A DNA stretch of 64,000 nt. It comes from a virus. The stretch lies in the IMG/VR virus record IMGVR_UViG_3300047509_000156, positions 1 through 64,000 of that record; one strand, written 5' to 3'. Both the position numbers and the translations under genes were made by a program. Positions 3,521 through 48,036 of the stretch are shown here, in pieces. The notes beneath the pieces were generated by a model, which saw nothing but the letters and a program-made list of their open reading frames with translations, did not search any database and was not told where the DNA came from. Within the stretch, counting starts at the first letter, position 1; every line of letters begins with the position of its first letter.

Positions 3521-5329
3521 TTAATCAAATCGATCCAGCCTTACCGTCCACACCCCGGCTGCTGTCCGTACGCGCAACAGGCAGTCGAGGCTCTTGTCGT
3601 GGCTCTGGATCGCGTACCCGTTGGCGTCTCCCTCCTCCTTGTCGGTGACGATTGCCGAGTTGGCATACGCCTCCATCGCGTGACGGATGTCGCGGTACTC
3701 ACTGCGGAGCGATTCGGGGAAAAAGGCGCCACCAATGTCCATCGTCGCCCTGGCCCCTTCGAGGGCGAACAGTGCCATCTCTGGATGGTGGGCAAACTGC
3801 TCCGGCTTTTGCCAGTGCGGCGGGCAGCGGCAGATCAGGTTCACCTTGACCCAGGATGGCGAGTGGAGCGACCACTGCTGCGGTGGCGATCCGTAGGTGT
3901 GCAAGTACCACGACACGGGGTTGCGCTGCCGCTGGTACTCGAACTTCAGTTCTTCGCTTGCTCCAGACTCCAGAGCAGCAGCCGACATATCCCACGGCGC
4001 CACGACGATCCGTTCGCTCGTCGGAATAAGAACGTCCAACCAATCCCACTGAAGTATTGGTGGCGCCTCCGCGTTGACTGCCGTCACTAGGCCATAGTAG
4101 GACGTTTGCCGGCCCGAGACGTAATACTCCAGCGATAGTGCCTCGGGTAATACCGTGTCGCGGAACTTCACCCACGTCATCGTCTGCTGAGGCAGTTCGA
4201 GGAATGACGCTCCGGTTTCCTTGGATCGCTGGATGAGGTGATCGAAGGCGCCACGGATTGTGTCCTCTCGCTGTGTTCGCGGCTTCCAGATGATTCCCTG
4301 TGGCAGGATGTCGCTCATCTTGGCAAACCGCCGCTGGAGCGCGCCGGCGGACTTCAGTTTCTCCACGACCGCGTTGCCGGCCGCGATCTGGCCTTCCGTG
4401 ATCGTCTGCGGACGTTGATAGGCGAGAGGGTGCATCTTCTGCGCCCACCGCCTCTTGATGGCGTCGAAGGTCATACCGCTCTTGATGTCGTCGAGCAGCG
4501 TCGAGATCATCGTCGAGCGAACGTGGCAGAATCCCACCGGCGCCGTGGCCACGGCGAGCCAGATCATGTTGGCGCGTCGTAATTCGTGCTTTACATCCTT
4601 AAGCCTCTGGTGGAGAGACAGGAACCACTCCGCGACGCCGTGGACCTTCTCGCTCCTCTCCAGGGAATCCGACTTGAGGACGGCAACAGCCTGCTCGACG
4701 GTGCCAAGCGAGTAGTCGGCCAGAGCGGACGAGAGCATTCCAAACTCCTCCCGCTTCTGCGCCATCATCTGCTCGGCCGTCAGGGTGGGGTGCTTGAACG
4801 GTCGCGTGTTGATCCCCGACAGGTGCGTCCACGTCCCCGTCTGCGGTATACCCCACACCTCGTCGGAGGAGAGAAAGACGCCCGTGACGCGAGCCCTGGC
4901 GACAATGCCACACATTGCCACTCCAGAGTCTTGGAAGAATGGCGGGAACCCACCGACCGCGTTATCCCACAGCACAGGCCAAGACTTCCCGTGTCCATCG
5001 ATTGTCGTCAGCCCGCCGTATCTCTCGATAAAGTGGCGACATGCCGAGCAGCAATAATGCTGCCGTGGTCCGCTATAGATGACAACTGTTGCCGGGCAGT
5101 GCTTTTGGTGTGCCTCGGCAGACGGACCAGTGCGGTCAGCGCCGCAGGTGCAGATACTGTAGGCTTTCCCTCCAGGGATACCGTGAAGGTACTCATCGAA
5201 CAAGTAACTGGCATCCGTGGCAAAGAGCGGTCCCCGTGCCGCCGCCGTCCTCTGGCGTATCAGGTTCTCGAACTGGTGGTAGGCATGGTCGCTCTCGACA
5301 CGCGCTGACATGGCGGTTTTCTCGGACAT
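3521..5329 (-). CDS. Large unknown protein (602 aa)
   Basis: 602 residues, first gene of the leftward block downstream of the tRNA-Thr-like gene and promoter P1. An N-terminal Cys/His cluster (SICTCGADRTG..., HCPAT..., YCCSACRHF, residues about 55-100) suggests a metal-binding module. The rest is a mixed alpha/beta protein with many Trp/Tyr and segments such as NPVSWYLHTYG and WSLHSPSWVKVN. I do not recognise a family. No catalytic motif is evident. Its isolated position with tRNAs and an RNA-ligase-like gene suggests an early or accessory role, which is inference. Confidence 0.75.
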   Translation of the reverse strand: MSEKTAMSARVESDHAYHQFENLIRQRTAAARGPLFATDASYLFDEYLHGIPGGKAYSICTCGADRTGPSAEAHQKHCPATVVIYSGPRQHYCCSACRHFIERYGGLTTIDGHGKSWPVLWDNAVGGFPPFFQDSGVAMCGIVARARVTGVFLSSDEVWGIPQTGTWTHLSGINTRPFKHPTLTAEQMMAQKREEFGMLSSALADYSLGTVEQAVAVLKSDSLERSEKVHGVAEWFLSLHQRLKDVKHELRRANMIWLAVATAPVGFCHVRSTMISTLLDDIKSGMTFDAIKRRWAQKMHPLAYQRPQTITEGQIAAGNAVVEKLKSAGALQRRFAKMSDILPQGIIWKPRTQREDTIRGAFDHLIQRSKETGASFLELPQQTMTWVKFRDTVLPEALSLEYYVSGRQTSYYGLVTAVNAEAPPILQWDWLDVLIPTSERIVVAPWDMSAAALESGASEELKFEYQRQRNPVSWYLHTYGSPPQQWSLHSPSWVKVNLICRCPPHWQKPEQFAHHPEMALFALEGARATMDIGGAFFPESLRSEYRDIRHAMEAYANSAIVTDKEEGDANGYAIQSHDKSLDCLLRVRTAAGVWTVRLDRFD

Positions 5330-5368
5330 GGGGGAACTCCTGTGCGTAAGTGCGTAAATCAGAAACAG

Positions 5369-5440
5369 AGCCAGGTGGGGGAATCGAACCGCCCATCTCC
5401 GTCTTACGCTGACGGCGCCTTACCGTTGGGCCAACCAGGC
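5369..5440 (-). tRNA. tRNA-Thr(CGU)-like gene, possibly degenerate
   Basis: A 72-base cloverleaf can be drawn: acceptor GCCTGGT/ACCTGGC (one U-U mismatch), D stem GCC/GGC, anticodon stem CCGTC/GACGG, loop A-G-C-G-U-A-A, T arm GGCGG-TTCGATT-CCCCC (one C-C mismatch), discriminator U. The loop places anticodon CGU (Thr), matching the usual C-U-C-G-U-A-A loop of tRNA-Thr except that positions 32-33 are AG, so U33 is lost. The two stem mismatches mean it could be decaying. Promoter P1 lies just upstream. Confidence 0.65.
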
Positions 5441-5455
5441 TTCTACACGACAGTA

Positions 5456-5483
5456 TATACGCTGGACTGGTTCGTGCGTGACA
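5456..5483 (-). promoter_or_regulatory. Phage promoter P1 (TGTCAC-N15-GCGTATA)
   Basis: On the leftward strand TGTCAC (5483-5478) is followed after exactly 15 bases by GCGTATA (5462-5456), 16 bases before the tRNA-Thr-like 5' end. The same pair with the same spacing occurs at four other gene starts in this window. It would drive the tRNAs, the 602-residue gene and the small genes down to 1032. Confidence 0.65.
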
Positions 5484-5506
5484 GGAAAATCAGATAGAAT
5501 TTCGGA

Positions 5507-6385
5507 ATGGCCGAATACACCATCAACCCACCATGGGTCTTCGCTCAACCCGGCTTCAAGCCAGGGTTATCCTGTCCGATCTGTTGCGCCAACCTGCCAC
5601 CACTGGACGAGGACGGCAAGTCTTTCTGCTCCGTCTGCGGCACGATGCATGAGGATGCCTCTCAGAAGCGTCCGTCCAGTGTCCCCTACATCGTCGGCGT
5701 TGATCTGGGAAAACTCCGCGACCCGTCCGCTTTCGTCGCCTACAAGACTTCTGCCGTGGGAGAACAGACAGCTTACTCAGCCGTCGCTCTGGAGCGATTC
5801 GATAAGGGTACTCCTTATCCCAAGATCCGCAAGACGATAGCCAGTTGGGTATCCAGAGAGCCTCTGGATGAGGCACCTCTTGTTGTGGACGCCACAGGCG
5901 TAGGAGGACCCGTCGTCGATGAGATGCAGGAGATGCCCGAACTTCGCGGTCGCATCGTCCCCGTGACGATCACTCAGGGTTTAGCAATATCCTGGGATAA
6001 GACGACGAAGATGTGGCACGTCGCCAAGAGGCACCTGGCCTCGGTGATTCAGGCCACCCTCTCCAGCGGACGGCTCATCATCCCTCCCGCCGACGAGAGT
6101 TGGACGCCCCAGGAAAAGGGTTCGTGGACACGGATAATTAAGGTTCTTGAGGAGGAGTTCAAGAACTTCACCATCAAGATCACGACTCACGGAAACGAGA
6201 CTATGTCCGCATGGCGAGACAACGTGGACAACGATGACATTCTCATGGCAACCGCAACGTGTCTGTGGTGGTCCGAGTACCGCCAGTTGGCCCAGGCTGT
6301 CAGTTTCGCCAGCGGTGCTCCAACAATCAGTCCCGACGCCTTCTCTCTGCCCGGCATGACGGACCCCAGGACGATTCGGATATGA
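5507..6385 (+). CDS. terL: Terminase large subunit, nuclease half (split gene)
   Basis: 292 residues carrying the RNase H-like headful nuclease of TerL that cuts concatemeric DNA at packaging. Seen: acidic residues in VGVDLGKLRDPS (D66), VVDATGVGG (D128) and NDDILMA (D243/D244). No ATPase motifs are present; those lie in the gene at 32-838, separated by 4.5 kb of opposite-strand genes. The N-terminus adds a CPICC...CSVC zinc knuckle (23-44) not usual for this domain, perhaps a docking element for the other half. The start is the first ATG; no strong ribosome site is seen. Confidence 0.9.
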   Translation: MAEYTINPPWVFAQPGFKPGLSCPICCANLPPLDEDGKSFCSVCGTMHEDASQKRPSSVPYIVGVDLGKLRDPSAFVAYKTSAVGEQTAYSAVALERFDKGTPYPKIRKTIASWVSREPLDEAPLVVDATGVGGPVVDEMQEMPELRGRIVPVTITQGLAISWDKTTKMWHVAKRHLASVIQATLSSGRLIIPPADESWTPQEKGSWTRIIKVLEEEFKNFTIKITTHGNETMSAWRDNVDNDDILMATATCLWWSEYRQLAQAVSFASGAPTISPDAFSLPGMTDPRTIRI

Positions 6386-6522
6386 GACACACCGACGCCG
6401 AGCCGTTCTTCGTGGCGCTGATGCTCAACCTGATCCTGGTCGCTCTTGGGCTGGCTGGACTGGGGTTGGAGCATCTAAGTCGAACTCTTCTGACTCTATC
6501 GGGAGTTCCCCAGCGCGAATGA
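6382..6522 (+). CDS. Small membrane protein (46 aa)
   Basis: The ATG at 6382 overlaps the terminase-nuclease stop (ATGA). The 46-residue product has one clear hydrophobic segment (residues about 10-29, FVALMLNLILVALGLAGLGL). It overlaps the convergent gene at 6425 by about 100 bases on the other strand, which lowers confidence. It could be a lysis or membrane accessory protein, but nothing specific shows this. Confidence 0.45.
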   Translation: MRHTDAEPFFVALMLNLILVALGLAGLGLEHLSRTLLTLSGVPQRE

Positions 6523-6697
6523 CGTTCTGTGGTCCCGGAGATCCATCGCCGTACATGATCAGGTCCTCGTCGATAAACTGCGCCAGTAGCGCAATCGCCG
6601 CCTCGTCGCGTATCATTAGACGAGGGTTACGATTGATCTCCTGACGCAATCGCTTGTAGGCGTTGCGGGCCATACGCTGGATCACTTCTCCGGTCAC
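6425..6697 (-). CDS. Hypothetical protein (90 aa)
   Basis: Basic helical N-terminal half and a Pro/Glu-rich tail (TPVQPAQERPG). Last gene of the long leftward operon. Its 3' part overlaps the small rightward membrane-protein frame. Not recognised. Confidence 0.6.
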   Translation of the reverse strand: MTGEVIQRMARNAYKRLRQEINRNPRLMIRDEAAIALLAQFIDEDLIMYGDGSPGPQNVIRAGELPIESEEFDLDAPTPVQPAQERPGSG

Positions 6698-6698
6698 T

Positions 6699-6902
6699 TT
6701 AACTCCTTGGTACTCTCGACAGTCTCAGCGCCAAGGCGGTTGCCGAAGCAGGCGTTTCTTCGCCGACGTTAGCGGTGTAGTTCCTGTACTCAACGCTGCC
6801 GCCACAGCCGCGAAGTTCGCACTCGCACCAGGCACAAATGCCGTGTCGAAGGTGGTAGAGTTGCTTCCCACATCGCGTGCATTCTTCAAGTCCTTCGTCC
6901 AT
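6699..6902 (-). CDS. Small zinc-ribbon protein (67 aa)
   Basis: Two Cys pairs, CTRC (8-11) and CAWCEC (23-28), plus a further Cys, fit a compact zinc ribbon. The start abuts the stop of the neighbouring gene. One of many small Cys-knuckle genes in the leftward operon. Likely a DNA-, RNA- or protein-binding accessory factor; no finer assignment is possible. Confidence 0.6.
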   Translation of the reverse strand: MDEGLEECTRCGKQLYHLRHGICAWCECELRGCGGSVEYRNYTANVGEETPASATALALRLSRVPRS

Positions 6903-7106
6903 TTACCACTCCGATGTTGTTTCGGCGAGCAAGACAACTGGCGTGTAGGTGTCGTGCCCCGACTGGCATTCCCAGCGGACGCTGACGACACGCCACTGGC
7001 GATCGTCGATGCGGATAGTGTGTCCTGTCAGCGGCACGGCCAACATCGACAGGATACAGTCTTCCTTCTTTGATAGTTGGTGGAAGATGACGTGGACGGG
7101 GATCAT
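6903..7106 (-). CDS. Hypothetical protein (67 aa)
   Basis: Beta-rich 67-residue protein. Its ATG shares bases with the stop of the GTG-started gene upstream, indicating translational coupling. No family recognised. Confidence 0.6.
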   Translation of the reverse strand: MIPVHVIFHQLSKKEDCILSMLAVPLTGHTIRIDDRQWRVVSVRWECQSGHDTYTPVVLLAETTSEW

Positions 7107-7279
7107 GTGGCCTCCTTGGGCGTATCGTTCTTGTGGATCATGCGCAGGTAGTGCGTGACGAGTTGCTTGTGGATACGAACCATAGCAGCATCGTCATCGC
7201 GAGACTGGGCGTGTTCTAGCTCCCTCTCCAGCCTTTCGGCAATCTTGATGTCGTCCTGATTTCCCTTGAGTGGACTCAC
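7103..7279 (-). CDS. Small hypothetical protein, GTG start (58 aa)
   Basis: A 58-residue frame starting at a GTG that overlaps the stop of the giant sigma-fusion gene (GTGA) and ending in an overlap with the next ATG. The product is a charged, helical protein (AERLERELEHAQSRDDDAA) with little else. The double overlap supports it as a real gene. Confidence 0.6.
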   Translation of the reverse strand: MSPLKGNQDDIKIAERLERELEHAQSRDDDAAMVRIHKQLVTHYLRMIHKNDTPKEAT

Positions 7280-10200
7280 TGCTGTGCCTCCAGAAGTTTC
7301 CTGAGTTGCTTCCGCGCCCGCTCCCGTGTCTTGCGGTAGGCGTCCTTGGCTTTCTTCTGTTCTTCACCGGCCATTTCTTCGATGTGTTTCGGGTAGTCTC
7401 CCTGCCCGGTGAGGTCGAAGTTAATCACGTCCTGGTGTTCTTGCGGCAGTTTGGCGATGACAGGCTTCAGTCGCTGGATCTCCTCGTGGGTCGCCTCCTT
7501 CTCCTCGCTGCCGTGATCGGTCGCCGCCGGATCAATCCTTCCCTCTCCCTCTTCGCCATATCCTTCGATACTTGACGCTTTCTCTCTCTTGTTTTTGCGT
7601 CCTAGGTCACGGGTGCGACTGACGACCGCCTTGTGGACAAACCCCTTCCAGTCGTCCCGCGAGGGATCGAATCTTCCGTCACGGATTGCCTTGAGCAGAG
7701 TCAGCGAGGCTTCCTGAGCGATGTCGTCTGCCTCGCTGCCGCTCTTGCTGATGCTTCGCGCCCACTTCGTTGCCGATCTTAGTACGTCCTGGTGGTGTTC
7801 GTTGAAGAACGTGTCGGCGATCTGTTGCCGCCGCTTTGTTTCCTCCGGAGAAGGTTCTGCTGTATCCGCTGGTTTTACCGCTTCTTCGGTAGGCTTTTCC
7901 ACCGCCTCGCCTTCCGGCATGGTCGCCGCCTCGGCCTGTTTCGCCAGAGGGACGCTTTTCTTCTTCATGGCGGCGACGCGATCGGAGACGGACTTCTTCG
8001 GCTTTGCCGCCGTCTCGGTTGCTGGTGTCTCTGTTCGCAACTTACCTTCAATGTCGGAGAGTTGCTGCTCGTACTCGTGTATCTGGTTGAGACGATCATC
8101 GTATCCCTGTCCTACCTTGCCAGCAGGTCTTTTGCCGGACGGGAATGACCTCTCGAATTCAGCCTTGGCATCAGCCAAGTTTTTGGCGGATCGCTCTCTC
8201 GTCGCCTTTAGACGCTCAGTCGTAGGCGACGAGGCGGTAGTCGCTGGTGCCTCGGTCGGCGTTTCTTTTGCCGTATCTCCTTGCTTCTTCATATCCACGA
8301 ACATCAACTGGCCCTTGTCCGATGGGATACCACGGTTCCAGTTGGGAGTCGTCTTTCCCGTGTGTCCGGCCTGAAGAACCAACTTATCATCCGTCTGCCA
8401 CTTCAAGAGGAGATCGTGAACCTGATTTTCGCTGATCTCCGGGTGCTTCTCGCGGATAGCGTCCACGATATCGGGTATCGGCACTGAGGCGCCATTGAGT
8501 TTCCTCTCGATATCATCAAAGGCGACTCTAGCCGTCTTCTCGATGGCCGGCTCCTGCTCCGGTGTTATCGCTGCTGTCTCTGGTTGCTGCGTGGCTTCGG
8601 TACTGCCGTTAGTAGCAGGCACAGCGTCTCTGCCTGTCGGAGGCGTTGCGTTCTGCCGTTCTGCAAGTCTCTTTTTCGCTTTCTCGATTATCCCTTGCGT
8701 CTTTTTACTTAAAGAAGAATATCCTTCCCTGGCCCACATGGCAGATTCCACGAGATCGCCAGTACGTACCGGCCTTCCTTCAGCAGAGGCACATTCCTGT
8801 GCAATGGCAGAAGCGAGATTGGCGTCTACGCCCATCTTTTTCGCTGTCTTGCCGATCTTGTCCGACATTGCATCGTCGATAGCCCCGGGCTTTTCTTGCT
8901 CGATTGCGCCGCCTGACGGGGCCTCTACCCCAGCCTCTCGTTTGGCGGTAAGGGCAGCAGGTTCTGCTTTTGTCTCCGTCGCTGGGGAAGTATTACCGAC
9001 AGGTTTGACAGCAGCCGGAGCAATCTGTGTCTCGCTGGCAGGCTTTGCCTCGGCTGCGGCTGGTTCGCTGGTGGCAGGAGCGGCTTCTGGTTTAGCTTCT
9101 GCTGGCGGCGTCTCGTTTACTAGTCCGACTGCCGCCTCTTTTTTTGGCTCTGCCGGCTTTTCTTCGGCCATATCCTTGACCATGCCACGATCACGCCATC
9201 GCTGCATTCCTGCTTCACTTGCCGGATATTCACCACTTTCAGTTTCCCAACTATTAGGACCAGTACGGACGTAAACTGTACCTTCTCCCTCCTCGCCACG
9301 ATGCTTGACGCGGACACGCTCCTCTGCCGGCTTCTGTTCAACCCGCTGCGGTGCCGCAGGAGTCTGTTCAGTTGGCGCTGTCGTGGCTGGCGTCTCAGTT
9401 GATGCACCTTCTGGCGGAGTATTTTCGCCCGGCGTCTCTGGCTGCTTCTCCTGTACCGCAGGTTCCGTCGCCACAGCTTCCTGCTTCACTTCCGACTCGG
9501 CTGGTGTAGCCTTGGCGGCAGGTTTGGCTTCCTCTGCCGGAGTATCGACGGGTGTCTGATCGACGGCGGCGGCAGTGTCCTCGGGTGTGGCTTGCTGTCC
9601 CGACTCAACTTTACCCTTGTTCTTTGGTTTCAACTCGCGACCTGCTGGCGGTCCTTTTACCTTTGGCTTTCCTTCGATCTCGCCTTGCGCCTGTTCCTTG
9701 GCAGATTGCCAGTCTGTTTCTGCCTGCTTGATAGCCTGCCTTTTTGCTTTCGCATCTCCTCCAGCAGAGCCAAGTCTCTTCTTGACTTCTGCTTGAACCT
9801 CTTCCTGATTCGGATGAAACCCTGGGCTTTCCTGTCCTTGCATGACGGCGATTACGTCTCGCAAGAACTCCTCTTTGGCTTGCGGATTCATCTCTGCGAC
9901 AGGTTCTGATGGCGTTTCTGCACTGGCCGTTGACGCTTCGGCTGGTTTAGCCTCTGGCGTTACGGTCGGCTTTTCCTTGCGGGTGAGTTTGCGTGGCGTA
10001 AACTCTCGCTTTGTGCCAGTTTCACGATGCGTTACCGCCACTTCTTCTGGTGTGCCAACTGTCGCTGTCATACCTCCTGTTGCCAGATTGGCTTCTTTGG
10101 TTTGATTGCGCAACTCGTTCTTAATCAGGCTAGCCAGCGCCTCCTTGTTGTGCGCTTCTGCCTCCTTGTTGCCCTGCTGCTCGTTCTGCTTGATCGTCTC

Positions 10201-10896
10201 CAGTAAGTGGTGGGCAACGTGGCTGGCCTCTTTGAAGTGATGGGCCGTTCCTCCTTCTTCCTCGGAGGAGGTGTGCGGGCCTTCCTTATCGGTGCCGAAG
10301 ACCTTCTCGACGGCGTTGGTCCAGCGATGGCTGCCCACCTTGGCGTACTTCTCACCTCCCGTACCTTCCTTGACCGACGGCGCCTCCTGGGTGCCCTGGA
10401 CATGCTCGCCGTTGACGTAGGTTTGCTTGCGACCCAGCGAGTCCGTGATCGTTCCCGTGAAGTTAGGATGCGGCAGCCCGCCGGAAACGCCGGCTGACTT
10501 CTTGGTTCCAAGACCTTCGGAACCTCGCGGCGTCTTGCCGGCATCCTTGCCCAGATGCCAGTCGCTTTTCTTCTGCCACCAGTCGGAGAGATCGAAGGGG
10601 ATGTCGCCGGCATAAGCCCATGACTTCTCGCCAACTCCTCCCTCCTTCTCGGTGATGTTGCCGGCGCGGAGGTAGCCCCGGTACTGAAAGCGGAGGTTGC
10701 TCATCCAGGCGCGAGGATCTTCCTCGGCCTCGACCCAGTCCTGTTTCTCCACGTCGAAACATGGTGTTTGGAGGATGTTCAGGAGTGCGGTGCGGTCCTT
10801 GGGTTCGAGGTGGAACGTCGCACCATCGTGGGAAATGGTGCCGGCCGTAACGTCCTTGCCTTGAGCATCAAACTCGTAGATTTCGACGGACAGCAT
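7276..10896 (-). CDS. Giant low-complexity protein with C-terminal sigma-factor module
   Basis: 1206 residues in the head-gene cluster. Residues 1-180 are ordered and Trp-rich (SWAYAGDIPFDLSDWW). The middle, about 280-780, is Ala/Pro/Glu/Thr-rich low-complexity sequence. Residues about 785-870 look like a winged helix (VPIPDIVDAIREKHP). The last 189 residues read as an ECF-like sigma factor: region 2 around EADDIAQEASLTLLKAI and WKGFVHKAVVSRTRD, region 4 around IAKLPQEHQDVINF and the helical tail. Sigma modules bind core RNA polymerase and promoter DNA. Placement beside the prohead protease and a kinase suggests a virion protein that could be ejected to redirect transcription; this is inference. 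The C-terminal module could also be a degenerate sigma-like fold. Confidence 0.8.
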   Translation of the reverse strand: MLSVEIYEFDAQGKDVTAGTISHDGATFHLEPKDRTALLNILQTPCFDVEKQDWVEAEEDPRAWMSNLRFQYRGYLRAGNITEKEGGVGEKSWAYAGDIPFDLSDWWQKKSDWHLGKDAGKTPRGSEGLGTKKSAGVSGGLPHPNFTGTITDSLGRKQTYVNGEHVQGTQEAPSVKEGTGGEKYAKVGSHRWTNAVEKVFGTDKEGPHTSSEEEGGTAHHFKEASHVAHHLLETIKQNEQQGNKEAEAHNKEALASLIKNELRNQTKEANLATGGMTATVGTPEEVAVTHRETGTKREFTPRKLTRKEKPTVTPEAKPAEASTASAETPSEPVAEMNPQAKEEFLRDVIAVMQGQESPGFHPNQEEVQAEVKKRLGSAGGDAKAKRQAIKQAETDWQSAKEQAQGEIEGKPKVKGPPAGRELKPKNKGKVESGQQATPEDTAAAVDQTPVDTPAEEAKPAAKATPAESEVKQEAVATEPAVQEKQPETPGENTPPEGASTETPATTAPTEQTPAAPQRVEQKPAEERVRVKHRGEEGEGTVYVRTGPNSWETESGEYPASEAGMQRWRDRGMVKDMAEEKPAEPKKEAAVGLVNETPPAEAKPEAAPATSEPAAAEAKPASETQIAPAAVKPVGNTSPATETKAEPAALTAKREAGVEAPSGGAIEQEKPGAIDDAMSDKIGKTAKKMGVDANLASAIAQECASAEGRPVRTGDLVESAMWAREGYSSLSKKTQGIIEKAKKRLAERQNATPPTGRDAVPATNGSTEATQQPETAAITPEQEPAIEKTARVAFDDIERKLNGASVPIPDIVDAIREKHPEISENQVHDLLLKWQTDDKLVLQAGHTGKTTPNWNRGIPSDKGQLMFVDMKKQGDTAKETPTEAPATTASSPTTERLKATRERSAKNLADAKAEFERSFPSGKRPAGKVGQGYDDRLNQIHEYEQQLSDIEGKLRTETPATETAAKPKKSVSDRVAAMKKKSVPLAKQAEAATMPEGEAVEKPTEEAVKPADTAEPSPEETKRRQQIADTFFNEHHQDVLRSATKWARSISKSGSEADDIAQEASLTLLKAIRDGRFDPSRDDWKGFVHKAVVSRTRDLGRKNKREKASSIEGYGEEGEGRIDPAATDHGSEEKEATHEEIQRLKPVIAKLPQEHQDVINFDLTGQGDYPKHIEEMAGEEQKKAKDAYRKTRERARKQLRKLLEAQQ

Positions 10897-11125
10897 AATG
10901 AAACTCGTCGGCTAGAAATTCGTATCTGTTCCTCGCTAGCACGTCGCACATCTTTAGTGCCGACTTAGCCAGTTCCGAGTATTCTCCTGACTCTGCTAGT
11001 CCAAGAAGGGCGATGACGACAGCGGTTATGGTGTCCTTGAGAAACATAATGTTATCTTCGCCGCGACGAAGATAAACCGTGGCACAGTTATCATCAAATT
11101 CAACGTGGACCTTTTTTGCTTTCAT
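10868..11125 (-). CDS. Hypothetical protein (85 aa)
   Basis: Starts with a Lys-rich beta hairpin (KAKKVHVEFDDNCATVYLRRGED) followed by two helices. The 3' end overlaps the start of the sigma-fusion gene by 29 bases, and the start overlaps the kinase stop. Not recognised. Confidence 0.6.
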   Translation of the reverse strand: MKAKKVHVEFDDNCATVYLRRGEDNIMFLKDTITAVVIALLGLAESGEYSELAKSALKMCDVLARNRYEFLADEFHYAVRRNLRV

Positions 11126-12420
11126 GCCGCTCCCTTCTTGCGCAACTTCCGCGTCGGCGGCGGGCTGCCCATGTCACCGGATAGTTTCGCCTCCGGTTCC
11201 CTGGCGACACTCACTAAAGATCGAGGCTCCTCTGGATTAACCGCCACCTGAGTGCCTTCTGCCGCTTTCTGTTTGGGCGTCGCCTGCCGCAATGGCTGAG
11301 GCTCGCCTTCTTTTTGCTTTGGACGCATCAGGCGTTTGGTGGGACCAATGTCCTCGTTGCCAGCCTTGCGCTTACGTTCACCGATCAGGTCGCGGAGTTT
11401 ACCGTGCGGTTCATCCAGAATCGGTAGATCGCCGATCTTCAGGGCATTGCCTTGAATCACGGCCGATAGTCGCGCGCCAGTCATCTTGATCGCTTCCTCG
11501 TCCAGTCCGAGCCGCTGGAACTCCTTCTCGATCTCCCCCCACTTACCTTCCAACTCCTTGGTGTCGGGGATGTCCCAGTCCAGCGCATGATGCAGGATCA
11601 AATTGTGCGAGGCGCGGAAGTCTCTCCTGTCGTGTTTGCTGGGAAAGGCCAGGCCGTTGTCGATCAGTTTCAACTCCCCATCCTTGACGAGCCAGTTACC
11701 CGCGTGGCGGTCGAGGTGGCCGGCGATGTAGTCAAGGATGGCCGCTCGCGCCGCATCCTTGTGGCCGTCATAGGCTTTCTCGGCCATGACGACACCACGG
11801 CGGTTCCAGGCACCTAGATGTGTCATGGCTGCTTCGCCCCGTTCTTCCCTCTCACCTGATTCCTCCTTGATCAAATCGCTTGCCGTCTGGGCATCGCCAA
11901 CAAACTTCTGGATCGAGCCAACTATCTCGCCCTGCTGGCGAATCGTTGTCTCGGGGACAAGGTCGCCGAACCCAAGAATGTCAGCCAAACGCCAGAACGC
12001 CGCTTCGCGGAGGTACATGGTCCCCGGCTTGACGCCGCGCTTGAGGATATAGCGCTCCGTGCCAGGAGCGACGCCGATCTCACCATCGGCCGGCTTCCAC
12101 ATGGCCTTCTCGCCCGTGGACAGGGTGACGATAAAGGTCGTGTTGACGCCACCACGCGCCGGAGGCTCCTGTGAGGAGAAGTCACTCGTCTCCAGGTGCG
12201 CCAACCGCTCATCCTCGCGCTTTTCCGGCGCCCGGATACGCGGTGTCTGCTTGGGCTGTGCGGGCGTCGGCACTGTGCCGATCTTGGCCCTCTCCTCGCG
12301 TAACTTGGCCTCCTCGGTATCGGCGTGGACCTTCTGTTCCTCGCCGAACTGGCTGCCGAGTTCCCCTGTCTGCTTCTTGGTGAGTTTCCTCTTCGGCTCG
12401 TCGGTCTGAACCCGCTTCAT
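11122..12420 (-). CDS. Protein kinase-like (PI3/4-kinase/HipA-type fold)
   Basis: 432 residues. A kinase core spans about 93-330: a beta-strand Lys in EKAMWKPADG (K109), a helix Glu in YLREAAFW (E139), catalytic loop HLDRHAGNW (D237, N242) and metal-binding LIDNG (D254) in place of DFG. This matches the bacterial PI3/4-kinase-like and HipA families, which phosphorylate proteins or small molecules. Charged tails flank the core. It sits between the prohead protease and the sigma-fusion gene, so it may be a head-associated enzyme that modifies virion or host proteins; the substrate is unknown. Confidence 0.75.
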   Translation of the reverse strand: MKRVQTDEPKRKLTKKQTGELGSQFGEEQKVHADTEEAKLREERAKIGTVPTPAQPKQTPRIRAPEKREDERLAHLETSDFSSQEPPARGGVNTTFIVTLSTGEKAMWKPADGEIGVAPGTERYILKRGVKPGTMYLREAAFWRLADILGFGDLVPETTIRQQGEIVGSIQKFVGDAQTASDLIKEESGEREERGEAAMTHLGAWNRRGVVMAEKAYDGHKDAARAAILDYIAGHLDRHAGNWLVKDGELKLIDNGLAFPSKHDRRDFRASHNLILHHALDWDIPDTKELEGKWGEIEKEFQRLGLDEEAIKMTGARLSAVIQGNALKIGDLPILDEPHGKLRDLIGERKRKAGNEDIGPTKRLMRPKQKEGEPQPLRQATPKQKAAEGTQVAVNPEEPRSLVSVAREPEAKLSGDMGSPPPTRKLRKKGAA

Positions 12421-12496: not shown

Positions 12497-13462
12497 TTAG
12501 TCCCGAAAGGATTCGGCTGGAGAGCCGACCGCCTTTCGCTTGAGTTTCCTGCCCAGCAGCGTCAGCGACTTGGCGGACACCCTGGGACGCTTGAGATGGA
12601 TCGCAGGTCCAGGCGAAGCGGGCGGTACAAAGGAGCCACCGCCCGACTGGCTGGTCGCTGACATAGCAGGCCCGGCAGCCGACTTGACGCAGAGAGTACG
12701 AGGCGAGAAGCCGGCGCCGTAGATGGTCGCTCTCTTGCCAGTCAACCACGGCTGCCAGCGCATCTTGTAGTAATCCGAGATCCCGCCGGTACCCCAGTTG
12801 AGTCCCATCGCCTTGCGGACAGCACCAGCACAGTCGGCGTTGATGGGGATGGCTGTCAGGGATGGTTCCAGGAGTTCGGTTCGGACGAGGTGCAACCCCG
12901 AAGGCTTCCCTTCACCGTGCCGGCCAACCTTGTTGAAGTGGCCGTCGCTCGGATCGGGCGGCAGTGGCCGTGCCAGGATAATGCGGTATCCTACACTGCC
13001 GGAGGAAAGGATCTCTTCCTTGTAGAGTTTGTACGCTTGATCGGACTCCCGCAGAGAGGATGACATAAAAGCGTCGCACTCGGCCAGTCCTTCCTTCGCG
13101 TGGACGTAGACCGTGTAATTGTGCGCTGCGTCCTTGGTCTTGCCCACCGGCCAGGGACACCACTTGCCGTGATCGATAAGGACGGTCCCCGGACCCTTCC
13201 TGTGGTTCTTCGTATCCATCCCCGAGACTTCGTAGAGGTCGCCTTCGCGGTCTCTGCCATGCGTGGCGGCGAAGATGAAGCGGATCGACATGAGGGCGTC
13301 GTTGGTGGTCGGCATTTTCCCATGCTCGCCCACGGCGACCTCCATGCCGTACTGGCCCTGACCGATCTGGTAGGCCGACATCGATGGCATGGCAGCGCCC
13401 TGGGCAGCCTTTTCGCCACGCAGACGGAGAACGAGATCAACTTCCGGCGTCAGGAGACTCAT
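12497..13462 (-). CDS. Prohead maturation protease
   Basis: 321 residues resembling the HK97-type (peptidase family S78/U35) prohead protease that processes scaffold and capsid before packaging. Seen: candidate catalytic His in VLIDHGK (H98), Ser-rich LSSGSVGY (152-159) and the family hallmark ELLEPSLTAIPINAD (196-210), equivalent to the usual 'E.S.V..PAN'. The last 90 residues are basic and Pro/Ser-rich (RPRVSAKS). It is upstream of the kinase gene in the leftward operon. Confidence 0.85.
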   Translation of the reverse strand: MSLLTPEVDLVLRLRGEKAAQGAAMPSMSAYQIGQGQYGMEVAVGEHGKMPTTNDALMSIRFIFAATHGRDREGDLYEVSGMDTKNHRKGPGTVLIDHGKWCPWPVGKTKDAAHNYTVYVHAKEGLAECDAFMSSSLRESDQAYKLYKEEILSSGSVGYRIILARPLPPDPSDGHFNKVGRHGEGKPSGLHLVRTELLEPSLTAIPINADCAGAVRKAMGLNWGTGGISDYYKMRWQPWLTGKRATIYGAGFSPRTLCVKSAAGPAMSATSQSGGGSFVPPASPGPAIHLKRPRVSAKSLTLLGRKLKRKAVGSPAESFRD

Positions 13463-15450: not shown

Positions 15451-15560
15451 GGGAGGGTCCTTTGTCACAACGAGGAGAAGGCTGCGTACATGGTAGCGGA
15501 AAACCACCGGCGTACAACAGGTGATTCGTTCCTTCGTCGCACATGCCATCAATCGAAGGA

Positions 15561-17696
15561 TCAACTCGACGTGGTAAACGTGGCCCAGACAGTGCTTCCT
15601 GTCGTGTTCACGAACAACCGCGACGTGGTCGAGTTGCCGCCCGTGTTCAGACAGAGACTGCCCTGTGCGGCAGTAAACGTCGGCACTGTCGAACTGACGT
15701 AAATGCCGAACGCGGCCGTGCTGGAGATCAGGACTGCTGCCGTGGTGGCCGCGTTTGATGGCGCCACGTTGGAACAGATCGTCACCGTGCCGGCCGTGCC
15801 GGCACTGGTGCCGCCGTTGATCGTCACCGATCCGCCGCTGCCCGACGTGTTCCCGCCCGCACCGCCAGCGATGGCCACTGCCCCGCCGGTACCCGAACCG
15901 GCGCCTGGTCCTCCGGCGCCTGCCGTAAGGGTAAGGTTCCCGCCAGAGGATGAACCAGAGCCACGGCCACCGACCATACTGGCTGCACCACCGGCCGAGT
16001 TACCGGCCGTTCCTGCCCCGCCAGCGACGGCTACAGCACCACCAGCGCCCGATGTCGCTCCACCCGCTCCGCCCGTCATACTGACTGCGCCGCCGGCGCC
16101 TGTTGCTCCACCTGCTCCGCCTGTCAGGCTTGCCAGTCCGCCAGCAACGGCGGTTGCGCCTGCACCGGCAGCCATGATAAGTGTGCCGCCGCCGGCGCCC
16201 GTTCCGGCGACATTTGTACCGGCCGCCCCGGCCGTGATCGCCACATTGCCTCCAGCACCTGAAGTTCCGGCGCCCGATGTTGCCCCGCCGGCCCCGGCGA
16301 GAATCGTCACTGCTCCACCGGCACCACCCGTTCCTGTCGCCGAACCGGCACCGCCGACGCCAGCCGTGAGTTGGCCTGACCCGCCGATGCCACCGGCACC
16401 AGTGGAACTTGACGCACCACCGGCACCGCCGATCAAGGCTGCCGTGCCGGCCTGGGCTGCCGCCGAGGAACCCGCGACGGTGCCCGAGGCGCCGGCCGTG
16501 ATTGTCACCGCACCACCAGCAGCGCTGGCCTGGCCGCCCGTGGCCGAGCAGGCACCGCCGGCCCCACCTGTGATCGTCACTGCGCCACCAGCGCCAGTGA
16601 TACCAGACGTGGCTGATGAGCAGGCGCCACCAGCACCGCCTGTGATCGATACTGCCGAACCGGCACCACCGATACCGGCCGCTCCTGTCGTTGCTCCGCC
16701 GGCAACGCCAGTGATCGAGATTGTGCCACCAGCGCCACCAGTTCCTGTGGTCGCCGTGCCCGTCGTGCCGCAAGTTAGAGTAATGGCACCGGAAGCCGAG
16801 GCAACGGTTGTCGTGGCGTTGGAAGAGGCGCCCGTCGTGATCGTACAGGCACCACCAGCACCGGATGTTGCACCACCTGCTCCACCCGTCAGGCTGGCGG
16901 CACCGCCGACGCCGGTAGCGCCGCCGGCGCCGGCTGTAGTGGTGCTGGCGCCACCGGCTGCCGAACCCTGGCCGGCACCGCCGACGAGGGAAGCCGCCCC
17001 GCCGGCAGCGTTACCGTTGACGCCGGCACCACCAGTAAGACTCACAGCGCCGCCGGCACCCGAGGTAGCACCACCCGCCGCACCAGCGATGACGACGGCG
17101 CCGCCAGCGGTAGAAGTCGTCGAGGCCCCACCTGTAATGTTGAACGCCTCGCCGCCGGTCGAGGAGATAGCCTGCATCAGGACGCCGCCAGCGGCAGCAG
17201 ACGACGTGATCTTGACGCCAGTGGCGGCACTGCCAGCGCTGGCGGAAACTGCAAACGCCGGGTTCGTCGTGCCGTTGGGACCAACGACAAAGGCGTTTGC
17301 CGACGCCGAGGTGATTGTCTGGGCCACGTTGGTTGTCTGGAGAATGCCGGACTTCAGTGCTCCGGTATTGTCCAGGGTGTACACGTCGAAGAAGCCGCCC
17401 TCGCCCGTCGTGATGAGATAATCAACCGTCGTGGCATCCGTCGTCGCCGCCATCAGGATGTCGCCGGCGCCCAGAGGTAGGTTGACGATGAACAGTTGCT
17501 CGTTTGGTCCCAGTTGCGCCCGCACGATCTGACGTTCCGTCAGGGCACCGGCCGGGTCGATGGAGATGAGAACCGTCTCCGTCAGCGATCCCGACTTGTT
17601 CTGGAGGATCAGCGTGACCTGATTGGGGTAGTTGATGACCCCGGTATAAAGTGCGGTATCGGCGACGGCAAGTTGACCCGAAGCGAGTACAGACAC
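15561..17696 (-). CDS. Glycine/alanine-rich fibre or adhesin (711 aa)
   Basis: GTG start at 17696, placed by an AGGTGAT ribosome site. Residues 1-190 form an ordered beta-rich domain. From about 195 to 640 the sequence is built of irregular 10-14-residue units such as GGAGGATSGAGGAVSLTGGAG, nearly all Gly, Ala, Thr and Ser, the composition of polyglycine-II or collagen-like fibre stalks. A 70-residue C-terminal domain ends in NTTGSTVWATFTTSS. Probably a head or tail fibre exposed on the virion. The opposite strand stays open across it because of this codon pattern and is not a gene. Confidence 0.75.
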   Translation of the reverse strand: MSVLASGQLAVADTALYTGVINYPNQVTLILQNKSGSLTETVLISIDPAGALTERQIVRAQLGPNEQLFIVNLPLGAGDILMAATTDATTVDYLITTGEGGFFDVYTLDNTGALKSGILQTTNVAQTITSASANAFVVGPNGTTNPAFAVSASAGSAATGVKITSSAAAGGVLMQAISSTGGEAFNITGGASTTSTAGGAVVIAGAAGGATSGAGGAVSLTGGAGVNGNAAGGAASLVGGAGQGSAAGGASTTTAGAGGATGVGGAASLTGGAGGATSGAGGACTITTGASSNATTTVASASGAITLTCGTTGTATTGTGGAGGTISITGVAGGATTGAAGIGGAGSAVSITGGAGGACSSATSGITGAGGAVTITGGAGGACSATGGQASAAGGAVTITAGASGTVAGSSAAAQAGTAALIGGAGGASSSTGAGGIGGSGQLTAGVGGAGSATGTGGAGGAVTILAGAGGATSGAGTSGAGGNVAITAGAAGTNVAGTGAGGGTLIMAAGAGATAVAGGLASLTGGAGGATGAGGAVSMTGGAGGATSGAGGAVAVAGGAGTAGNSAGGAASMVGGRGSGSSSGGNLTLTAGAGGPGAGSGTGGAVAIAGGAGGNTSGSGGSVTINGGTSAGTAGTVTICSNVAPSNAATTAAVLISSTAAFGIYVSSTVPTFTAAQGSLCLNTGGNSTTSRLFVNTTGSTVWATFTTSS

Positions 17697-17713
17697 AATA
17701 TCACCTCGATTAT

Positions 17714-17929
17714 TTAGGAGGTTCGATACCACTCGGGCAGCGTGCCAACAGCGGCCTCTGCCGATTTCGTTTGCCGCTCCCCGATTCCCCAGAACTCGAC
17801 TTCCTTGACCGTGCCATCGTCCCCGTAGACGATTTTCTTTACGCGCGGGCAGGTACCGCCGTGCAGGCAGCCGCACCAGCGGCAGGCGCCTTCGAGATCA
17901 AGACCGGGAGTCAGGCTGTCGGCGTTCAT
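17714..17929 (-). CDS. Small Cys-rich protein (71 aa)
   Basis: A CRWCGCLHGGTCPRVKK cluster (16-32) followed by KIVYGDDGTVKEVEFW, a pattern I associate with a short conserved phage protein of unknown role, probably zinc-binding. Its start overlaps the stop of the membrane-anchored gene upstream. Confidence 0.6.
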   Translation of the reverse strand: MNADSLTPGLDLEGACRWCGCLHGGTCPRVKKIVYGDDGTVKEVEFWGIGERQTKSAEAAVGTLPEWYRTS

Positions 17930-18285: not shown

Positions 18286-18614
18286 GTCAGGCTCAAAACC
18301 ACGTTGACTGGGGGATCGGGCGGCACGTTCTGCGTCGGGATCGTCAGCGAGTTGGATGTCGCCGGTGCCGAGGAGAGGTTCGTCGCGCCGTTGACGGCCA
18401 CTACTGTGGCAACCAGCACGTCACCGCCTGCCAGCGTGACGCCAGGATTGGCGGCATCCCAGGTTGAAGAGTAGCCTGACGCATCTCCGGATGCCGACTG
18501 GGGCACAGTGACAGGCGAACCGGCGGCGACGCCGTTACGCTGCCAGGAAACGCCATAACTCGTCACTCCCGAGGAGTCTGAAGCGTTCCACGTCACCTTG
18601 GGGTTGATGGCCAT
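18282..18614 (-). CDS. Fibronectin-III-like small protein (110 aa)
   Basis: ATG at 18614 with AAGAGG upstream. The sequence (VTWNASDSSGVTSYGVSWQRNG, about residues 6-27; and a later VATVVAVNGATNLSS) has the strand pattern of a fibronectin type III domain, often found as a surface decoration in tailed phages. Probably a virion decoration. The 80 bases between it and the portal gene hold nothing obvious. Confidence 0.6.
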   Translation of the reverse strand: MAINPKVTWNASDSSGVTSYGVSWQRNGVAAGSPVTVPQSASGDASGYSSTWDAANPGVTLAGGDVLVATVVAVNGATNLSSAPATSNSLTIPTQNVPPDPPVNVVLSLT

Positions 18615-18694: not shown

Positions 18695-20278
18695 TCAGGG
18701 ATGGTATCCATTGCCGTTGATACGAGCAAATTTCCGCGTATATGCAGACTTTCCGCCCTGCGTCGGTACAACCGGCGAGCCGCTATTCGTTGGCCGGGTC
18801 CTCTCGACATTACCCGCCTGCCGCATCCGGTTAGGCTGGGAGTTACCTGCCGTGCCTTCGAGGAGCGACTGGAGCTGAGCGTCTTCGGGAGACTCCTCCT
18901 TGGCCGGCGGTTCTCCCGCCTGCTGGACCTGGCCGGGCATTATCTGCCCTTCGCTGCCACCTTCCATTCCTGGCTTCTGGGCAAAGATGGCGCCGTTGAT
19001 GGCTCGCTCCTCGCCCCAGTCCTCGTCGATCTTCTTCAGCTTCCGCAAGTGGCGGATCTCGTTGATGGTCCTGATCCCCGCCTGGAGATCCGTGTTAATC
19101 TGCCTCTCCCTCAACTCCTCGTCGTCGATGGGTTTGGGCTCGTACTCGGCGAAGTAGTTAAAGCCGTAGAACGGCCAGACAAGCGAGAGATTGTCAGCGT
19201 CGGCTAATTGTTGCAGCAGTGGCATCAGGGTGAAGAGGTTGAACTGTTTCAGGGCCGCGTAGAGGATCGCGTAACTCGTGTCCTCGTTCTGGAAGGCCAG
19301 TTGGCGAGAGACGCCAAAGATGCTCATGACGAAGGACATGAGTTGCTTCCAACTCTCCACCCAGCCCATTTCGATGTCTGTTTCTCCGTAGGACTTCATC
19401 GTTAATCCAGGCGAAAGGACGACGGTACTTCCCGTCTTCCACGGCCCGGAGTACATTTGACGCAATTCGTGCTTCAGGCGGTCGAGTTCGGCGCCACGGG
19501 GGAAGAGGATCTGCGGGTCGGCCTCGACGACGTTGTCCGGTTTGGCCGCGTTCTGAGTGCGAGCAAATCTTCCCTGCTCGATCGAATTAAGCGTGTCCAA
19601 AGGCAAGGAACAGGCTGTCAGAGGCGAGAGTCCTTCCTGATCGGTGAGCGGATGAGGGAATCGCGTCGCCGTGATATAGCGCGCCGGCACGACGACGCCG
19701 CCTTGGTTCCAGGCGCCGGGCATCAGGTTTAGTGGACCTGGCCAGAAAGGCTGGATGCGGTAGGCGCCATCGGGATAGACGGATGATGGAGCAATAGGCT
19801 GGTAGGTCCCCGTGGGTACGTTCCACTGCTCGTGCGGCCTGCCGAAACCGTCTTTCACCTGCCAGATGAGCGAGGTGCCGGTTAACTCCAACTGCTGTAC
19901 CCGTCGTCGCCTGAGCGTGGCCCCTGTCTCCTTGGGGTTGGGGTGGTTAAAGACGCGGCAGAGGTCATGGCTCCTTGGCAGCGCCTCGCGGTGTTCGAGG
20001 TCGTTGCCCATCCTGGCTTCCTCTTCCCACTGGTAGAGGCGCAGGGAAGCAGCGGCAGCCTGGTCCATCAGTACCTTGATGGCTACGTAGACGGCGCCGA
20101 TGTCGCGGAAACTTTCCTTGAGGTGGTCGCTCCACCAGTTGACGGGGGCGGGAGAACGGCGGGCGGCGAGATAGTTCTCCCGTGCCATCACGTCGGCAGG
20201 CGAGCCTTCACCGGCCATCTCGGAGACTGGCTGATGGTAGACGGCGGAGAACAGGCCCTGGTAGGAAGGTTTGGCCAT
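18695..20278 (-). CDS. Portal protein
   Basis: 527 residues of the HK97-type portal family, the dodecameric ring at the capsid vertex through which DNA enters. Matching features: MARENYLAARRSP start region, ELTGTSLIWQVKDGFGRP, WNVPTG.YQPI, DG.YRIQPFWPG, the GLSPLTACS segment, SRQLAFQNEDTSYA with the usual Asn/Thr-rich stem, and TINEIRHLRKLKKID near the C-terminus. The C-terminal 90 residues are Gln/Pro-rich. The major capsid gene is 37 kb away, which is unusual for this family. Two short segments reappear in small genes at 54.1-54.7 kb. Confidence 0.93.
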   Translation of the reverse strand: MAKPSYQGLFSAVYHQPVSEMAGEGSPADVMARENYLAARRSPAPVNWWSDHLKESFRDIGAVYVAIKVLMDQAAAASLRLYQWEEEARMGNDLEHREALPRSHDLCRVFNHPNPKETGATLRRRRVQQLELTGTSLIWQVKDGFGRPHEQWNVPTGTYQPIAPSSVYPDGAYRIQPFWPGPLNLMPGAWNQGGVVVPARYITATRFPHPLTDQEGLSPLTACSLPLDTLNSIEQGRFARTQNAAKPDNVVEADPQILFPRGAELDRLKHELRQMYSGPWKTGSTVVLSPGLTMKSYGETDIEMGWVESWKQLMSFVMSIFGVSRQLAFQNEDTSYAILYAALKQFNLFTLMPLLQQLADADNLSLVWPFYGFNYFAEYEPKPIDDEELRERQINTDLQAGIRTINEIRHLRKLKKIDEDWGEERAINGAIFAQKPGMEGGSEGQIMPGQVQQAGEPPAKEESPEDAQLQSLLEGTAGNSQPNRMRQAGNVERTRPTNSGSPVVPTQGGKSAYTRKFARINGNGYHP

Positions 20279-22734: not shown

Positions 22735-23055
22735 CTACGGCTGAAACAAACACAGCGCGCCCGTCGAGAGTTCCGCCGCATTGCCGGGATCGGTGCGGCG
22801 AATCTTGTACTGATACGTTCTCGCTGTCAGGTTGACGGTGGCCGATGCCGGTATGACGATGGTAACGATGCCATTGGCCGGGTCGGTGATCGTGACGCTC
22901 CCTCCGGCGATTCCAGGGATGACGATATCCGTGTAATTCACCGAGAATGAGATACCCCAGCCGGCGATCGACTGCGGTGTACCGTCGGCGGCGAGGATCT
23001 GATCGGTGATGCCGATGTCGTCGCCCAGAGTAAAGCCAAGGTTCGTCTGGCTCAT
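22735..23055 (-). CDS. BppU-N-like structural protein (106 aa)
   Basis: Opens MSQTNLGFTLGDDIGITDQI and continues with a Gly/Ile/Thr-rich immunoglobulin-like pattern (SIAGWGISFSVNYTD). This resembles the N-terminal domain of baseplate upper proteins (BppU family), which attach receptor-binding modules. The match is by eye. Its ATG overlaps the stop of the giant repeat protein. Confidence 0.6.
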   Translation of the reverse strand: MSQTNLGFTLGDDIGITDQILAADGTPQSIAGWGISFSVNYTDIVIPGIAGGSVTITDPANGIVTIVIPASATVNLTARTYQYKIRRTDPGNAAELSTGALCLFQP

Positions 23056-26000: not shown

Positions 26001-26102
26001 TTCTTCCTGTTCTCTGTAGAAGTTATTGCCCGGAAGAAGAGGCTCCTCAAAATCGATGAACGCCCCAGGACGAGGCAGTGTGATGATCTGAAGGAGGTCC
26101 AC
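23055..26102 (-). CDS. Giant Trp/Asp-Glu repeat protein with C-terminal beta domains
   Basis: 1015 residues. About 17 tandem units fill residues 25-598, each starting EEPW and containing PWL...F.DE. Several early units alternate between a 31-residue type ending DPEARLGFDQ and a 35-residue type ending DTALLANFYREQ. After this come a Thr/Gly-rich transthyretin-like fold (SGKVYLQDGTTPAGAG) and a long beta-helix-like region (SIAVAGNWNAGAGFSPGAF) that ends in a short Pro/Gly tail. The repeats are acidic and Trp-rich. No known repeat family fits. Probably an elongated virion protein. It is followed by the BppU-like gene and preceded by a second protein made of the same repeats. Confidence 0.75.
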   Translation of the reverse strand: MDLLQIITLPRPGAFIDFEEPLLPGNNFYREQEETWPQLRMAVQNVPWMALTFLDEAIDIAILKNYYREQEEPWVTQTTTVSWLSVTFLDEDPEARLGFDLEEPWVTQITTITWLARPFTDEAIDLTTLANFYREQEEPWITQVTVIPWLGVSFLDEDPETRLGFDQEEPWVAQTTVIPWLPRPFTDESPDTALLTNFYREQEEFWTAQTTNVPWLSVVFADEDPEARLGFDQEEPWVTQITAIPWLALPFKDEAIDLAVLANFYREQEEPWVGAVTTIPWLGVAFLDESTDIALLSNFYREQEEFWTAQVTSAPWLAITFLDEDPEARLGFDLEEPWAGAIEVIPWTSRHFLDESPDTALLANFYREQEEPWVGAVESILWLPRPFADDEISSFATLGVDQEDAWPQLVESILWAPRPSLDEAIDTASLANFPREQEEPWGAQATVAPWTSLPFRDDDTISVAPATLGLDQEEPWLTQVQTIAWLARPYLDEAIDTATLANFYREQEDGWPALVTTTVWTASPSRDDETRSFAAALDQEESWQTQTQTLTWTARVAFEDEVVATALGIDLEEPWLAAIQSAPWLPVSFSDTESLFFATITLSGKVYLQDGTTPAGAGISVAAAVNGGPIAGTALTDTDSVYTISVLQPAAGTPLAVYLQNTPPEGGTVTTSTGASLSNLDINEHTLIPRSDGGMMTNAILAQANNGDADLVNVYNVFGSALTVANGNSLLLPLGNSFAPGDDIKMSGGGFVKLSGTFTAGTNSLTFQGGFGTSLLDTGGNTLYNLNASGGVLLALQSNVVLGGTLNFNSSTLDVSASNFSIAVAGNWNAGAGFSPGAFIARQGTVTFNGTNQSIRGQTTFWNLVKQVTTADTWTFQAGNLTTILNRFTATGVPGGFLAIRSDTMGSQFQIQSPTTHNVAYVSVRDSDNSLGVLVDPANSVDLGNNINWFPPPPPIPTLTVSMKDMYNPGRSVVTTETPGTLPITGSGSGQPSGTPTLDGNIKGTYNPSKKIQGS

Positions 26103-45241: not shown

Positions 45242-45269
45242 TATACGCGGCCGTCGCTATTGTGTGACA
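45242..45269 (-). promoter_or_regulatory. Phage promoter P2 (TGTCAC-N15-GCGTATA)
   Basis: Leftward TGTCAC (45269-45264) and GCGTATA (45248-45242) with 15 bases between, followed by the start of the gene at 45211. Same motif and spacing as P1, P3, P4 and P5. Confidence 0.65.
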
Positions 45270-47951: not shown

Positions 47952-48008
47952 GTTTCTCCTTCGCTGACTGGCCACGGATGTTAGAAGCATCGCGTGGCCT
48001 TTCCCTTA

Positions 48009-48036
48009 TATACGCTCAATCGGGCAACTTGTGACA
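48009..48036 (-). promoter_or_regulatory. Phage promoter P3 (TGTCAC-N15-GCGTATA)
   Basis: Leftward TGTCAC (48036-48031) and GCGTATA (48015-48009), 15 bases apart, about 58 bases before the sigma factor ATG. It overlaps the 3' end of the gene upstream. Confidence 0.65.

Follow-up and report, generated by a model that had tools for sequence, protein, structure and literature searches.

An ECF-type sigma module fused to a structural-operon phage protein, and a promoter set that it may read

How could a phage impose its own promoter specificity on host RNA polymerase at the very start of infection? Virus record IMGVR_UViG_3300047509_000156 raises this question with a 1206-residue protein, encoded on the minus strand at 7276-10896, that ends in an RNA polymerase sigma factor and whose gene lies amid structural genes. 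The window analysed here comprises bases 1-64000 of this 106,481-bp IMG/VR record, which is possibly incomplete, and gene calls throughout are the output of a simple script. Our favoured answer, which we hold at a probability of about 0.45, is that the fusion protein is made late, packaged and ejected, and that its module, a sigma factor of the extracytoplasmic function (ECF) type, steers the host enzyme to a non-structural regulon.

The sigma module and the chain that carries it

As the initial annotation proposed, the frame at 7276-10896 is open over 1206 codons without a stop and is the one coding frame at this locus. It shows in-frame codon bias throughout, and it beats both other frames on codon usage in every 100-codon block. 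The gene shares 29 nucleotides with its upstream neighbour, a called gene of 85 residues lying over its start (10868-11125, minus strand), and 4 nucleotides with a called gene of 58 residues lying over its stop (7103-7279, minus strand). A chance or artefactual reading frame is ruled out by the in-frame codon bias, the overlapping neighbours and the profile matches given below.

Residues 1018-1206 (7276-7845, minus strand) had been read as an ECF-like sigma factor, a reading that both profile search and structure prediction bear out. We regard the module as real almost beyond doubt, and the refined assignment to the ECF type is confirmed. Pfam Sigma70_r2 matches the fusion protein at E=2.6e-7 (30.8 bits, cut-off 24), PHROG 1740 'RNA polymerase sigma factor' matches it at 6.8e-11, and the NCBIfam model TIGR02937 (sigma70-ECF) covers regions 2 to 4 with 44.4 bits on the complete protein and 50.2 bits on residues 1018-1206 (cut-off 42.9). 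Seven bacterial relatives were recovered from GTDB genomes ranging from Bacteroidota to Caulobacter, all of them stand-alone ECF sigmas, and a profile built from these seven, with the query left out, gives the module 56.8 bits.

The AlphaFold model of the module, computed from the seven-sequence alignment (mean pLDDT, the predicted local distance difference test, of 73.9), consists of region 2, a disordered linker of ~30 residues and a four-helix region 4; regions 1.1 and 3 are absent. When the module was compared with the PDB by Foldseek, ECF sigmas bound to RNA polymerase or to anti-sigma factors came out on top (SigH, SigE, SigL, RpoE, AlgU, SigW and CnrH, probability up to 1.00), with low TM-scores because the mutual placement of the two domains is not fixed. 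Among viral predicted structures the best matches were uncultured-phage ECF sigmas, none of them reaching E 0.001.

Both regions named in the initial annotation can be placed, region 4 less firmly. Region 2 (residues 1038-1104; 7585-7785, minus strand) is identified by the Pfam match above the gathering cut-off, by the alignment and by helices at pLDDT 86-95, and it contains the core-binding type motif EADDIAQE and WKGFVHKAVVSRTRDLGRKNKR. Region 4 (residues ~1137-1205; 7282-7488, minus strand), which has no Pfam match of its own, is carried by the TIGR02937 match, which runs to the end of the model (165/165), and by a four-helix helix-turn-helix segment predicted with moderate confidence (pLDDT 52-77; module residues 120-131, 135-146, 151-157 and 162-188). 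The protein stops right after region 4, and the C-terminal SnoaL-like extension of ECF41 sigmas is absent.

From the N terminus, the fusion protein is built of an orphan region, a linker rich in Pro, Ala, Glu and Thr, a small helical island, a winged-helix-like segment, a coiled segment and the sigma factor. The orphan region (residues 1-170; 10387-10896, minus strand) has neither a Pfam match nor a tblastn match in phages. The low-complexity linker, put at 500 residues by the initial annotation, spans residues ~301-680 on composition (8857-9996, minus strand) and includes small islands. The islands at 520-590 and 660-760 match no known family. At residues ~784-866 (8299-8547, minus strand), single-sequence AlphaFold predicts, at pLDDT 67.5, an H-E-H-H-E-E order that corresponds to winged-helix topology. 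The top Foldseek folds for this segment are mostly Fur, PadR and ORC winged helices, none of them significant (E>0.1), so the winged helix proposed earlier stays a tentative assignment, plausible but weak. The sigma domain is the sole recognised effector domain in the chain.

A bipartite promoter motif and two candidate readers

The record contains 31 strong copies (refined matrix) of a bipartite motif, tGTCACA-N15-CGTATmT. In an unbiased count of spaced 5-mers, TCACA...CGTAT occurred in 20 of 80 upstream regions, compared with a shuffle maximum of 3-4. The exact pattern GTCACA-N15-CGTAT is found 20 times in the 20 kb at 84-104 kb (stretch L005), where 0.07 copies are expected, and 3 times in the 64-kb window (0.21 expected). 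Over 39 matrix matches the consensus base is present in the GTCACA columns in 39, 37, 38, 38, 35 and 35 cases (G, T, C, A, C, A) and in the CGTAT columns in 38, 36, 37, 37 and 36 (C, G, T, A, T), and 25 of the 26 exact GTCACA/CGTAT pairs are spaced by 15. Only one of the 31 strong sites lies outside intergenic DNA, and for 22 of the 31 a start codon follows within 75 nucleotides (binomial P ~1e-20), at a distance of 30-42 nucleotides in 17.

The rigid spacing, the -35 element TGTCACA and the -10 element starting with CGT are the geometry of an ECF promoter; conservation of the CG before TAT, but not of the -7 T, is likewise ECF-like. We predict that these copies are ECF-type promoters, with high confidence. 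The published ECF41 consensus is TGTCACA-N16-CGTC (PMC3426412), also used for Sinorhizobium meliloti RpoE9 (PMC3616915), and an ECF41 locus fetched as a control carries TGTCACAGCC...CTCGTC, written as TGTCACAGCCTCGGCGTCTGGCTCGTC. E. coli-type consensus sigma-70 promoters were not above chance in four of five stretches, at 0, 5, 3 and 6 against 3.4, 6.4, 6.0 and 6.3 expected; the fifth (L004) has 10 against 5.4, of which two precede genes resembling those of a helicase and ParB. A search for a second, late promoter motif in the minus-strand intergenic regions gave nothing above shuffles.

The strong sites are unevenly placed. The plus strand at 88-104 kb holds 21 of them, ahead of small orphan genes; another, at 76029 (minus strand), precedes a recombination operon with an Erf/Rad52-type annealing protein, one precedes an 88-residue gene at 67.7 kb, and a few more lie elsewhere. 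Within the window, the motif matrix places ECF-type promoters on the minus strand at 48009-48036 (TGTCACA-N15-CGTATA), ahead of a second sigma gene, at 45242-45269, ahead of 44771-45211, and at 5456-5483, ahead of a tRNA-Thr gene (5368-5440) and a 602-residue gene (3521-5329); on the plus strand one at 59931-59958 precedes 59990-60217. A near-perfect strong copy at 15463-15490 (plus strand) lies inside the structural block, facing away from its genes and with no plus-strand gene downstream, and an antisense transcript from it is possible. None of the strong sites of the record stands directly before the portal, protease, capsid or fusion gene.

Two further features of the motif sites may be recorded here. 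In several spacers at 95-99 kb the words TCGCCC or GAGGAGA recur and may be a second regulatory signal. Long G+C-rich hairpins lie over two ECF-type promoters (18534-18570 and 15207-15240 of L005, or ~102.5 and 99.2 kb of the record), with the -35 and -10 elements on or inside the stem; they are possibly terminator-promoter hybrids or regulatory stem-loops.

Which protein reads this motif? A profile scan of all open reading frames of at least 60 residues in the record finds only two sigma-like proteins, of which the fusion is the ECF-type one, and no third. The other is a stand-alone sigma (47115-47990, minus strand, with a probable start at 47951 behind AAGGAG) that profiles and PDB folds place with RpoD or group 3. 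It matches phrog_351 at 3.2e-26, Pfam Sigma70_r4 at 1.7e-13 and TIGR02937 with 68.1 bits, with RpoD and RpoH models next, and its PDB matches are SigA, RpoD and RpoS. It is RpoD-like in region 2.3-2.4 (KFSSFAYHWIR) and in the region 4.2 recognition helix (ITRERVRQLVARALDKLR). We think that the fused sigma is probably the reader of the GTCACA-N15-CGTAT promoters. The earlier proposal that it would let the phage seize host RNA polymerase gains independent support from ~31 ECF-type sites, mostly before non-structural genes, although their reader could instead be the second sigma or a host sigma.

Possible delivery in the virion and the alternatives

The fusion gene sits in a nearly unbroken minus-strand gene run that extends from ~64 kb down to 6.4 kb. 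It encodes a large multidomain protein amid overlapping, same-strand genes for portal, protease, kinase and repeat-rich structural-looking proteins, and lies downstream of the first three. The portal gene (18695-20278) is identified by Pfam Phage_portal at 2.6e-36 and by PHROG. A prohead-protease-like gene (12497-13462) matches the protease part of phrog_617 weakly (E=0.004) and has the motifs DHG...PVGK, SSGSVGYR and EPSLTAIPINADCAGA. A kinase gene of the PI3/PI4-kinase fold, SCO1664-like (11122-12420), is above the Pfam cut-off and matches NCBIfam TIGR03843 at 1.7e-10, below that model's cut-off. The initial annotation was therefore broadly right to place the gene in a head cluster beside protease and kinase, but this cluster is dispersed, since the HK97-type major capsid gene (57270-58769; Pfam Phage_capsid 4.5e-14) lies ~46 kb away. 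All four genes are on the minus strand.

A sigma encoded with virion genes, together with apparent promoters before non-structural genes, is the expected look of a pre-loaded factor, by analogy with the virion RNA polymerases of N4 and phiKZ. In the mechanism that we propose, the fusion, encoded at the downstream end of the structural genes, would be made as particles are built, enclosed in the lumen of the head or tail, and ejected together with the phage DNA. Either intact or cut from the chain, the sigma module would then bind host core RNA polymerase and direct it to the GTCACA-N15-CGTAT promoters, from which the small genes at 88-104 kb, the recombination operon and the gene of the second sigma would be transcribed. 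A later gene class, to which the structural genes and with them the fusion itself belong, would fall to that second sigma. A sigma made late but needed early would have to be carried in, as are the N4 and phiKZ polymerases. We put delivery in the virion at even odds. The full chain of events, with a dedicated early regulon behind ~30 ECF-type promoters, the second sigma gene included, and no need of a host sigma, falls somewhat short of that.

Several observations weigh against this proposal. No homologue of known packaging was found, the N-terminus of the fusion protein has no recognisable virion-targeting domain, and region 4 of the fused sigma is only moderately supported. That the 88-104 kb block is early is a reading of its layout only. 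Two minus-strand promoters, at 48036 and 45269, face the structural block and could supply part of it with transcripts, and GTCACA-N17-TATAT would also pass for a degenerate sigma-70 promoter. Finally, the second sigma has an R-Q recognition helix of its own and a gene that itself lies behind the motif, which fits autoregulation as in 7-11 and phiEco32 (PMC4331800).

The alternative that survives best, though we consider it rather unlikely, keeps the fused sigma functional but unpackaged, as an ordinary middle or late phage sigma made in the infected cell, with the fusion a neighbour-gene accident or a tether. To our knowledge, all well-studied phage sigma factors act after synthesis. The sigma of phiEco32 and 7-11 drives middle and late genes (PMC4331800; PMC9965538), and the position in the structural operon fits late synthesis alone. 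However, if its synthesis began with that of the structural proteins, the sigma would arrive too late to serve a mainly non-structural regulon, and the motif is absent directly before structural genes.

It is also unlikely that the second sigma reads the motif and autoregulates, leaving the fused sigma to other work such as titrating or redirecting host RNA polymerase. The perfect motif copy before its gene speaks for this arrangement, as do the spacing of 17 to TAT, which is that of sigma-70, and the recognition helix ITRERVRQLVARAL, which keeps the RQL..RA pattern of an ECF41 sigma (EAACRQLASRAR). Nevertheless, the helix is RpoD-like (RERxRQ) and, judged from known sigma-DNA contacts, would be expected to prefer TTGAC. 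The third -35 base would then be G, whereas 38 of 39 motif sites have C there. The unconserved -7 T and conserved CG are ECF-like, and of the two sigmas the fused one is of the ECF type.

A further possibility, compatible with packaging of the fusion but doubtful in itself, is that a free form of the sigma part arises in addition, or exclusively, through an internal start near Met993 or through cleavage by the prohead protease, the polyprotein serving as carrier. GAGG 8 nucleotides upstream of Met993 forms a weak internal Shine-Dalgarno sequence that falls short of the usual AAGGAGA of this phage; the protease gene lies near the fusion gene, but no cleavage motif is known. That a host sigma, of ECF41 type or a divergent primary one, reads the motif while the phage sigmas serve other promoters is very improbable: the motif is near the published ECF41 consensus, but a Caulobacter genome with an ECF41 factor, taken as a control, has 0 exact GTCACA-N15-CGTAT in 3.2 Mb against 25 pairs in the 106-kb phage, and ECF41 regulons, reported as single targets (PMC3426412), would be an odd choice for ~30 phage promoters.

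If packaging and ejection of the fused sigma hold true, a specificity factor alone would give a much cheaper takeover of transcription at time zero. The motif makes the pairing directly testable, since a short DNA template and a protein of 190 residues suffice, and it delimits a phage regulon purely from sequence, for a genome that has hardly any annotated relatives.

Surroundings, relatives and known systems

Several other genes deserve mention. Between the portal and protease genes lies a Gly/Ala/Thr-rich collagen-like repeat protein (GGAGGATSGAGGAV; 15561-17876), and two large structural-looking proteins (23055-26102 and 26113-27870) have degenerate repeats of ~30 residues, of the type FYREQEEPW..Q.TT.PWL.R.F.DE, with weak PHROG matches only. 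A 612-residue protein in the structural block (51913-53751) joins an N-terminal glycosyltransferase-like part to a C-terminal methyltransferase (phrog_2675). Slightly downstream of the sigma fusion, a Cys-rich mini protein of 67 residues (6699-6902; ECTRCGK...GICAWCECELRGC) is zinc-ribbon-like, and a putative anti-sigma role is conceivable for it. The 602-residue protein at 3521-5329 belongs to phrog_1735, of unknown function, and is conserved in 429 phage records at less than 60% identity. Rhizobium phages RHph_X66 and B1VFA also carry this gene, with no annotated sigma factor in the stretches viewed. All of these genes are on the minus strand.

Searches for relatives of the fusion by tblastn in 50,697 phage records, with the sigma domain, the N-terminus and the whole protein as queries, returned none, nor did a plasmid collection or IMG/VR; in the latter the sigma domain, an alignment and the whole protein were used, with a pattern step that detects close relatives only. 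The portal, protease, kinase and second sigma found no related phages in IMG/VR, and tblastn with portal and capsid gave distant matches only. MW462191, a 103-kb record with a portal match, was dropped as a bacterial-looking contig with a gene-transfer-agent-like cluster. In an IMG/VR scan for the ADDIAQE motif, aimed at other sigma fusions, the scoring matches were all stand-alone or short. One IMG/VR contig (L024) encodes, at 3719-8275 on the plus strand, a 1518-residue SNF2-helicase polyvalent-type protein with a sigma-region-2-like stretch (DADDIAQEALHRAL) and no Pfam sigma match; it is a lead only.

Phage sigma factors and injected polyvalent proteins are both known already. A structural-operon polyprotein that has a sigma module fused to it, with a large, cognate-looking set of ECF promoters alongside, was not found in the databases or literature searched, and literature searches for a virion-carried sigma, as a specificity factor alone, found no established case. 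The module itself resembles the ECF (group 4) sigmas, of which Mycobacterium tuberculosis SigH, SigE and SigL and E. coli RpoE provide the best PDB folds: these likewise consist of just regions 2 and 4 with a flexible linker between them. In contrast to its seven nearest bacterial relatives, which stand alone, the phage sigma is fused to a low-complexity N-terminal phage protein of ~1000 residues. ECF41 promoters have the -35 TGTCACA and a -10 starting with CGT in common with the phage motif (PMC3426412), but the published form is N16-CGTC where the phage has N15-CGTATmT, and the phage sigma lacks the SnoaL-like domain.

Phage sigmas such as gp36 of phiEco32, that of 7-11 and Sig of Twort-like phages likewise redirect the host core to phage promoters. 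Unlike the fusion, they are stand-alone proteins, expressed after infection and directed to middle or late genes, and Sig protein found in particles of the Twort-like phage fRuSau02 was judged unlikely to be structural (PMC5618024). The polyvalent proteins of phages and conjugative elements offer a closer parallel in layout, as large multidomain proteins encoded in a portal or structural neighbourhood. They are predicted to be injected, some of them jump-starting transcription, as with the N4-type virion RNA polymerase (Iyer et al. 2017, PMC5512222). The word 'sigma' is absent from the text of that study, and no known polyvalent domains were recognised within the N-terminal 1000 residues of the fusion. 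Phages that carry complete RNA polymerases into the cell, or enzymes that modify the polymerase, are known. With the virion polymerases of N4-like and phiKZ-like phages (PMC4496689; PMC7598289), the fusion may share a logic: made late, carried in and used at once on phage promoters. It would differ from them in carrying the specificity factor only and borrowing the catalytic core of its host.

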